The notes below the pieces were generated by a model that searched no databases, was not told the origin of the DNA, and saw nothing but the letters and a program-made list of their open reading frames with translations. 64,000 bases of DNA from the NCBI GenBank assembly GCA_016235865.1, contig JACRIK010000027.1:152213-216212 (forward strand), in the 5' to 3' direction. The stretch is from Planctomycetota bacterium (GTDB lineage Bacteria; Planctomycetota; MHYJ01; JACQXL01). The translations under genes were made by a program, and so were the position numbers. Every line of letters begins with the position of its first letter. Within the stretch, counting starts at the first letter, position 1. This document shows positions 6,261 through 11,581 of the stretch, piece after piece.

Positions 6261-6485
6261 ATGGATACGATTGCCATAATCCTGATTCTTCTCGCCGTGA
6301 GTCTGGGCCCTTCTTTCGTCATCGCTCTGGTTGGTTACGCCAGCATCCAGGCCCTGGGACGCAATCCGTCGGCCGCGCCTAAAATCCAGATGGCCATGAT
6401 TCTGGCTTTTGTCTTTGCCGTGGCTATTGCCCTGATAGCCATGCTGGTGATTTTTAATGTATTTGCGCCTAAGGGGGGAGGATAA
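6261..6485 (+). CDS. F-type ATPase c-like subunit lacking the ion-binding carboxylate
   Basis: 74 aa, two hydrophobic helices joined by the polar loop GRNPSAAPKIQ that is diagnostic of AtpE-type c subunits. In ordinary c subunits, helix 2 holds an essential Glu or Asp that carries the proton or sodium ion. Here helix 2 (residues 43-67) is entirely hydrophobic and the only acidic residue in the protein is Asp2. The glycine repeat of helix 1 is also eroded. The reading frame is clean with no sign of frameshift. It is first in the operon with b/delta, alpha, gamma and beta. It may still form a membrane ring, but ion transport by the classical mechanism is not supported by the sequence. Confidence 0.8.
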   Translation: MDTIAIILILLAVSLGPSFVIALVGYASIQALGRNPSAAPKIQMAMILAFVFAVAIALIAMLVIFNVFAPKGGG

Positions 6486-6512
6486 TCCCGTTAGAGAGCT
6501 TGAGAAAATTTA

Positions 6513-6586
6513 ATTCCCCCTTGTTAAAGGGGGATAAAGGGGGTTATTTAGAACAACCCCCCAACCCCCTTTTTTAAGGGGGATTT
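6513..6586. repeat. CCCCCTT/AAGGGGG quasi-palindrome inside the ATPase operon
   Basis: Nested inverted repeats (AATTCCCCCTTGTTAAAGGG on the left, AAGGGGGATTTT on the right, with AGGGGGTT / AACCCCCC within) fill the 111-bp gap between the c-like and b/delta genes. This is the type of intergenic palindrome dispersed in many bacterial genomes, and a degenerate relative lies at 20710-20753. It could fold in the mRNA and alter relative expression of the two genes. Confidence 0.7.
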
Positions 6587-6596
6587 TAGACGCCTT

Positions 6597-7370
6597 ATGG
6601 AATTAAGAGACACGATTATTTTAGTCATCGGGTTTGTGGTGGTGGCCGGGATTCTGGTGGCCCTGTTGAGGATGGTGCTGGCGGGCCAGTCCAATACGGC
6701 TATCGAGCGGCTGAAGCGCATCAACCAGGATAATCTTCAGCGCGAGCTGGAGTTGAAGAAGAAACTGGACGAGGCCGAGGCCCAATACCAGAGACGGCTG
6801 TCCGAGGCAACCGGCGATATACAGAAGATGAAGGAGAAGATGGAGGACGAGGTCGGCCAGATGAAGCAGAAGGTGGTGGCGGCGGCCGAGAAGGAGAAGG
6901 AGGGCATCCTGTCCGACGCCCGGCAGGAGGTGGCTGACCTGAAGAACGAACTGACCCTGGCGAGCAGCCAGCGGATTGCCGGATTCGCCCAAGAGGTGAT
7001 AAATAAATTGTTGGCCGGCGCAACGGACAGCGATAAAATAGCGGCCGGATTGCACCAGTATTTTATCGACGAGGCGGTGAAGAGAATCAGGTCAATGAAG
7101 AAGGAGATGCTGGCCTCGGCATTGGCCCTTCCGGGACAAGCCGGCTCGCACGAGATAGAGGTGTCGTCCCGGCTGGCCCTGACCGCGCATCAGAAGCAGG
7201 CCCTGAACGAGGCGTTTTCCGAGGCGTCCTCCAAGGCCGTGAAGATTGTCGAGAAACCGGCCAACAGCAAATACCTGGCCGGAGTTTCCATCAAGATAGG
7301 CAACCTGGTCGTAGACGCCACCCTAAGCAACCGGCTTAAGGAAATAGTGGCGGAGATAACGAAGAGTTAG
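6597..7370 (+). CDS. F-type ATPase b/delta fusion subunit
   Basis: 257 aa. One membrane helix at about residues 7-29, then a long charged coiled coil (about 35-130) typical of the b stalk, then a C-terminal region (about 130-257) resembling subunit delta, with the pattern VSIKIGNLVVDATLSNRLKEI near the end. Together it would form a peripheral stator linking the membrane part to the top of the alpha/beta hexamer. b-delta fusions are known from mycobacteria but there a second b is present; none is seen here. It starts at ATG 6597 after the palindromic repeat. Confidence 0.85.
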   Translation: MELRDTIILVIGFVVVAGILVALLRMVLAGQSNTAIERLKRINQDNLQRELELKKKLDEAEAQYQRRLSEATGDIQKMKEKMEDEVGQMKQKVVAAAEKEKEGILSDARQEVADLKNELTLASSQRIAGFAQEVINKLLAGATDSDKIAAGLHQYFIDEAVKRIRSMKKEMLASALALPGQAGSHEIEVSSRLALTAHQKQALNEAFSEASSKAVKIVEKPANSKYLAGVSIKIGNLVVDATLSNRLKEIVAEITKS

Positions 7371-7372
7371 CC

Positions 7373-7419
7373 GTAAATGACGAATGCCTAAATCCTAATG
7401 ACGAATACCAGTAATTTCT
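7373..7419. repeat. AATGACGAAT / CCTAAATCCTAATGACGAAT spacer repeat
   Basis: The 49-bp gap between b/delta and alpha holds two imperfect copies of AATGACGAAT joined by CCTAAATCC. This is low-complexity dispersed-repeat sequence rather than a regulatory site. Confidence 0.45.
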
Positions 7420-9880: not shown

Positions 9881-9888
9881 TTTAATAT

Positions 9889-11259
9889 ATGAATACAGGA
9901 AAAGTTGTTGCGGTTCAGGGCCCGGTGGTGGACGTGAAGTTCCCGGAAAACGCGGCGCTTCCGGCCATCTATGAGCTGATGTTTACCGCCACTTATGACA
10001 ATCGCCGGGTGCCGCTGGAGGTGGTGGAGCATCCGGGCGGCAATATCGCCCGTTGCATTGCCCTGGCCCAGACCCACGACCTGCAGAGGAATACGACGGT
10101 CGAAGCAACCGGCAAGCCCATCGAGACTCCGGTCGGGCCAGAGGTCTTCGGCCGGCTGATGAATGTCCTGGGCGAGCCGATTGATAACCGGGGCGAGATT
10201 AAGGCCCCGAAGCGCAAGCCGATACACGTCCCGCCGCATTTGTCCATCAAACTCAAGCGCCAGTCGCTGAAATACGAGATTATGGAGACCGGGATGAAGA
10301 TGATTGACCTGCTGTTCCCGCTGGTCAAGGGTGGTAAAATCGGCCTGCTGGGCGGCGCCGGCGTGGGCAAGACTATCCTGGTGATGGAAATCATCCATAA
10401 TATTGTCGGCAAGACCAAGGGTATTCCGATATTTACTGGCGTGGGTGAGCGTATCCGTGAAGGCAACGAGCTCTACTACGAGTTTAAGGAGCAAAGCCTG
10501 CTGGAGAAAGTCATTCTGGTATTCGGCCAGATGAACGAATCGCCCGGCGCCCGTTTTGAGGTGGCCCAGACCGGCGTGACCATTGCCGAGCATTTCCTGG
10601 AAGAGGGCAAGGACGTCCTGCTTTTCGTGGATAACGTATTCAGGTTCGTCCAGGCCGGTAGCGAACTTTCCACCCTGCTCGGGCGCACGCCGTCCGAGAC
10701 CGGATACCAGCCAACCTTGCTGGCAGAGATGAGCGCATTCCAGGAGCGAATCCGTTCCACACAAGAGGGTTCCATCACGGCCGTAGAAGCCGTTTATATC
10801 CCGGCCGACGACCTGTCCGACCCGGCCGTGGTCTGCACCTTCGGCTACCTTAATTCCATTATCGTCCTTTCCAGAGAAAAGGTCCAGGCCGGTTTCTATC
10901 CGGCCATTGACCCGCTGATTTCGTCCTCGTTCTCGCTGGATCCGGATATCGTGGGAAATCGTCATTATAATATTGCCATGGAGGTGCTGAAAATATTAAA
11001 TAAGTACGAAGAACTCAAACGTATCGTGGCGGTCATCGGGGTCGAGGAAATCTCCAAGGAAGACCGGCTGACCTACGAGCGGGCGCGCAAGATTCAGAAT
11101 TTCCTGACCCAGCCGTTCTTCAGCGGCGAACTCTACACCGGCAAGAAAGGCGAATACGTGACGCTGGAAAAGACCCTGGAGGGGATTGAGAAAATAATTT
11201 CCGGCGAACTGGACAAGCGCTCGGTCGACAGTTTTTATATGATTGGAGCGGCGAAGTAA
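9889..11259 (+). CDS. atpD: F-type ATPase beta subunit (catalytic)
   Basis: 456 aa. All catalytic hallmarks are present: P-loop GGAGVGKT (155-162), catalytic Glu187 in [22 protein letters not shown], Walker B LLFVDN, and a DELSEED-like VEEISKED segment that contacts gamma. ATP hydrolysis or synthesis chemistry should therefore be intact even though the associated c-like subunit lacks its carboxylate. It starts 8 nt after the gamma stop. No epsilon gene follows; the next gene is a small membrane protein after a CACTAAG-type spacer repeat. Confidence 0.95.
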
Positions 11260-11262
11260 TTA

Positions 11263-11291
11263 GCGCCACTAAGACACCAAGGCACTAAGGA
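11263..11291. repeat. CACTAAGACACCAAGG spacer repeat
   Basis: Imperfect direct repeats of CACTAAG / CACCAAGG between atpD and the next gene. Related or complementary copies occur at 11608-11666 and 52232-52258. Confidence 0.5.
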
Positions 11292-11293
11292 AT

Positions 11294-11581
11294 ATGCTTA
11301 AATTGTTTAAGATATTATTTGGGATAAGCAAGTTCAGTTTACTTTGTTTAGCGCTTGCAACGATTGTTATAATTTCCGGCTCCGCTATTTTAATATGTGT
11401 TGCCATAACACTTGCATCAAACTATGTTTTACCTGTAGTTGGTGCTTTTGGGGCAATCTGGCTGGTTCTTTTAGGTCTCTTTATGGTATCTGCGCAAAGA
11501 TTGATTCTACTGTTCATAAATGAGATTGAGGAGAAATCGCAAGCGTCGATGAAATCGGATAAGCCGGATAATAAAGAATAG
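11294..11581 (+). CDS. Small two-helix membrane protein, unknown
   Basis: 95 aa, starting 34 nt after atpD. Two hydrophobic segments (about 14-40 and 44-66) and a charged, Lys/Glu-rich C-terminal tail. No family recognised. Its place directly behind the beta gene, where epsilon would be expected, makes it a candidate accessory part of the ATPase, but it has no sequence resemblance to epsilon or to AtpI that I can see. Codon use looks more AT-rich than the ATPase genes. Confidence 0.6.
   Translation: MLKLFKILFGISKFSLLCLALATIVIISGSAILICVAITLASNYVLPVVGAFGAIWLVLLGLFMVSAQRLILLFINEIEEKSQASMKSDKPDNKE

Follow-up and report, generated by a model that had tools for sequence, protein, structure and literature searches.

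A second F-type ATPase cluster without its own subunit a in Planctomycetota

What could an F-type ATPase do if its ring protein had neither a subunit a of its own nor the carboxylate that carries ions? As an ion-coupling pair, the c ring and subunit a are considered inseparable; the family described here keeps the c ring protein with no a of its own, and two genomes have lost the carboxylate too. The locus lies in a 64,000-nucleotide stretch of a Planctomycetota contig (the window), where five ORFs at 6261-11259, all in a single direction and separated by intergenic gaps of 8-111 bases, encode c, b/delta, alpha, gamma and beta. In window coordinates, the features are as follows:

6261..6485, plus strand: c-like subunit, 74 aa (PF00137), with two hydrophobic segments, a GYASIQALGRNPSAAPKIQ loop and Val replacing the ion-binding Glu
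6597..7370, plus strand: b/delta fusion, 257 aa, with a membrane/stalk helix (4-141) and only the C-terminal OSCP domain (about 180-256)
7420..8868, plus strand: alpha subunit, with Walker A and Arg finger intact and the N-terminal extension missing
8969..9880, plus strand: divergent gamma, identified by Pfam, with two long helices and the central domain kept in the model
9889..11259, plus strand: beta subunit, with P-loop, catalytic Glu, Walker B and EEISKED intact
11294..11581, plus strand: 95-aa hydrophobic protein, present only in the window genome among the genomes examined
11672..13996, plus strand: GspE/PilB-type secretion ATPase (MshEN, T2SSE and PilZ), a conserved neighbour downstream of beta

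A five-gene cluster and a canonical operon in one genome

The original prediction placed a five-gene F-type cluster at this position, and a Pfam search returned the expected families: PF00137 for c (24.3 bits, cut-off 24), OSCP with a weak ATP-synt_B match for b/delta, ATP-synt_ab for alpha and beta, and ATP-synt for gamma. Neither atpB nor atpC adjoins the cluster, which agrees with the predicted lack of a neighbouring a or epsilon gene. The 95-aa protein, put forward as a candidate new part, fared less well: it matches no Pfam or NCBIfam family and nothing in any related locus examined, and we dropped it as a core part because it is absent from those loci.

The window assembly (2.67 Mb, 96% complete) carries on contig C1 a complete canonical operon in the order I, a, c, b, delta, alpha, gamma, beta, which has Glu in its c and holds the only atpB of the genome. 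A Glu-bearing c, an atpB and an atpC can all be found away from the window cluster, with atpB and c belonging to the canonical operon. The suggestion that the true c and a lie elsewhere is right in that a canonical a and c exist; we rejected them as simple suppliers of the window set because their operon has its own alpha and beta, which makes the window set a separate paralogue. Since the canonical operon is separate and complete, ATP synthesis is covered. In the canonical c (L002:8006-8347), helix 1 carries Gln and helix 2 Glu-Thr, a pattern that presumably resembles that of Na+-binding rings.

Two epsilon genes are found elsewhere in the window genome, one of canonical length on contig C18 and one encoding a 75-aa, beta-sandwich-only protein on contig C3 beside rpsP. 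The short epsilon is most likely that of the second complex, moved away from its cluster, because it is 59% identical to the epsilon encoded directly before c in a related genome (G005) and only 25% identical to a canonical epsilon; a short epsilon occupies the same rpsP position in another relative, G002. We rejected the idea that epsilon is truly absent from the second complex, as the short form is encoded in trans. The canonical-length epsilon (G000:C18:86252-86533, L067; G000 is the window genome) also lies apart from its operon.

Distribution of the second complex and its ring carboxylate

Within the same Brocadiia order, seven of the eight further genomes encode an orthologous second complex; one more case, G143, from another Planctomycetota class, turned up when 392 genomes across the phylum were scanned. 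The order genome without the complex, G004, has no F-type atpB; one of its loci (L097), read by eye, resembles an A/V-type ATPase. Gene order in G143 is epsilon-c-b/delta-alpha-gamma-beta-gspE-gspF followed by T2SS-like genes, including one for a T2SSK protein, and a separate canonical operon contains a. In the order genomes and in G143, no gene for an own subunit a lies beside any second-complex cluster, and atpB, counted across the order genomes, occurs at most once in each, in the canonical operon, and exactly once in all four genomes that are at least 90% complete. At gene level, the complex combines an F1 ATPase with a c ring but has no a of its own, and this lack across the whole family supports the idea of an unusual machine. 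In the beta tree, second-complex beta forms one deep clade (100/100), separate from canonical beta whether from these genomes or from other phyla.

Several other matches were set aside: L105-L112, among the 13 loci from a broad c search of genome contigs, are canonical operons, as is the phylum match G076, and weaker matches in the class of G143, read in part, look canonical by score level. A search of viral contigs returned nothing.

The window c has Asp2 as its sole acidic residue and, 20 residues after the Arg of GRNP, Val (codon GTG), which bears out the predicted loss of the ion-binding carboxylate. We take this offset to be that of E. coli Asp61; it lands on Glu in all four canonical c proteins checked. 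Second-complex c has Glu at the key position in six of eight genomes, the others being Val (GTG) in the window genome and Ile (ATA) in G001. The flanking alanines (FA-x-A-x-A) are invariant, the signature of second-complex c is GYASIQALGRNPS, and its alignment with canonical c shows that helix 1 is shortened and that helix 2 differs greatly. Two adjacent c genes are present in the G008 cluster (L047:6500-6721 and 6864-7091), one encoding Glu and the other, an additional copy, Gly at the carboxylate position; the two proteins possibly form a mixed ring.

Judged from these sequences, Glu is the ancestral state in second-complex c, and its losses in the window genome and G001 were probably independent: most trees group the window with Glu-bearing G002 rather than with G001, which implies two losses. 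A single loss is not rejected by a combined AU test (p 0.08-0.15), and the gspE tree alone favours grouping G001 with G002. Beyond the Glu site c is conserved (pN 0.145 versus pS 0.79), and pN is far below pS in all cluster genes; pS is near saturation, so that pairwise rates cannot date the loss of Glu in the window.

Catalytic core, stalk and resemblance to known systems

Motif alignment confirmed that Walker A, the catalytic Glu and Walker B of the window alpha and beta, and the alpha Arg finger, are all intact, in line with the original prediction. Gamma is divergent, as anticipated, with an ATP-synt match and a low-confidence model that keeps the F1 gamma fold and whose Foldseek matches are F1 gamma. 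The proposed fusion of b to delta is present, with the qualification that its delta part is the C-terminal delta/OSCP domain only: the model (mean pLDDT 83) consists of one long helix, then two short helices and that domain, and its Foldseek and PDB sequence matches are b-delta and delta subunits. The window alpha lacks an N-terminal stretch that canonical copies have. The usual stator contact joins this stretch to the N-terminal domain of delta, so the window complex lacks that contact on both sides.

Like canonical bacterial F1Fo, the second complex has alpha, beta, gamma, c, b and delta-like parts, and the window set keeps the alpha3beta3 catalytic motifs intact; unlike it, the complex has no own a, a short epsilon, only the C-terminal domain of delta and an alpha without its N-terminus, and in the window species the helix-2 carboxylate of the ring is absent.

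N-ATPases offer another parallel, as a second F-type operon in a Planctomycetota genome with an extended b in place of delta, and the best NCBIfam match of the window b/delta is TIGR03321. None of the NCBIfam models for these alternate F1F0 enzymes (TIGR03305, TIGR03321 and TIGR03324) matches the window set above cut-off, the scores falling far short (beta 531 versus 752, alpha 502 versus 750, b 42 versus 225), and no operon with a and AtpQ/AtpR-type genes was seen in the second-complex clusters read. Kuenenia clusters 2 and 3 are, we assume, N-ATPase-like. Besides a and I, cluster 2 has an additional ORF (PMC2936114); the second complex has none of the three.

The mycoplasma Type 2 gliding motor and Type 3 F1-like X0 are non-synthase F1-like ATPases (PMC3369863, PMC12994834), and the second complex resembles them as a second F1-like ATPase that would serve something besides ATP synthesis. 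In the mycoplasma enzymes no c has been recognised, and three proteins, of which two are in the membrane, have no known homologues (PMC3369863), whereas the second complex keeps a true c ring protein. No NCBIfam gliding or MSC_0618/0619 model matched the window set above cut-off.

Ion coupling, decay or a membrane motor

We favour, with about even confidence, an ancient second F-type complex without its own a that acts as an ATP-hydrolysing membrane motor or an anchored ATPase, on a ring that here cannot carry ions. Such a complex would comprise epsilon-c-b/delta-alpha-gamma-beta, without its own subunit a in any genome seen, and would still have its F1 ATPase, motifs intact, its gamma shaft and a c ring protein, along with a peripheral stalk of modified form. 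Because the only ring carboxylate has been lost in the window species, its ring should be unable to carry ions by the known Fo mechanism, and, the catalytic motifs being intact, we infer that ATP is hydrolysed there without ion flow. The ring would then serve at the envelope as a membrane anchor or a rotor, whether for assembly or for mechanical work. The loss of Glu in two genomes through different codons, together with the Gly in the extra c of G008, argues for this reading; against it, the evidence for loss in the window hangs on a single base, and Glu has been kept in six of eight genomes over near-saturated synonymous divergence, so that the family as a rule may couple to ions, perhaps by way of the canonical a. 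The F1-like motor of the original prediction, with a load other than ion flow, agrees with the family-wide lack of an own a and the lost Glu here, and sits poorly with the Glu of most relatives.

It is somewhat unlikely that the complex is instead a second ion-coupled F1Fo borrowing the single canonical a, the Glu loss here marking an uncoupled form or a dead end, but for the family this is a serious rival, because most relatives keep Glu even though an own a is missing and no order genome has more than one atpB. A borrowed a would have to work with a c whose helix 1 is shortened and whose helix 2 is very unlike that of canonical c, and with a b/delta and an alpha that lack the usual stator-attachment parts; two lineages, moreover, have dispensed with Glu.

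Doubtful, in our judgement, is a decaying operon, that is, a redundant paralogue losing its function with the Glu loss as an early step. An extra canonical copy is present, Glu is gone from two genomes and from the duplicate c, the second-complex beta of G008 (L123; G008:C13:34-1395) has an in-frame TAG that reflects either a pseudogene or an assembly error, beta of G001 is on a different contig from the remaining cluster genes, and epsilon has been relocated away from the cluster in G000 and G002. The remaining genes, however, are full length with conserved motifs, and pN is low against near-saturated pS, although these pairwise rates are compatible with a very recent loss in the window.

The original prediction took a Glu or Asp conserved in orthologues to point to a sequence error, and most orthologues do have Glu, but G001 lost it through a different codon, and a misreading of GAG as GTG, one base from the G002 codon, is very improbable given that ATA (Ile) in G001 is two changes from a Glu codon and that the reading frame around the Val codon is intact.

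Secretion genes downstream of beta

A gspE-type gene (T2SS/pilus ATPase) directly follows beta on the same strand in seven of nine clusters, namely those of the window (with the 95-aa ORF between), G001, G002, G003, G006, G008 and G143, and the gap is 12-80 bp in five of these seven. The beta of G001 still adjoins gspE on its separate contig, and additional T2SS genes come after gspE in three clusters (G006, G008 and G143). The clusters of G005 and G007 are not beside gspE, which counts against the membrane motor or anchored ATPase that we favour. The link is a genomic association and no proof of function, and it is the main lead to function; on the favoured reading, the complex would probably work close to a type II secretion system or a pilus-like machine. 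A rather unlikely extension is that a c-ring rotary F-type ATPase without its own a was taken over by a T2SS or type IV filament machine to serve as its motor or as an energising component, with some species giving up ion coupling entirely. Open-access papers yielded nothing on a T2SS-linked F-type ATPase. What else an F1 motor with a membrane ring can drive becomes directly testable outside mycoplasmas.

Farther along the window, and named by eye from sequence starts, two GroEL-like ORFs flank a GroES-like ORF on the minus strand (57696-61557), and DnaJ- and GrpE-like ORFs lie at 55752-57607.
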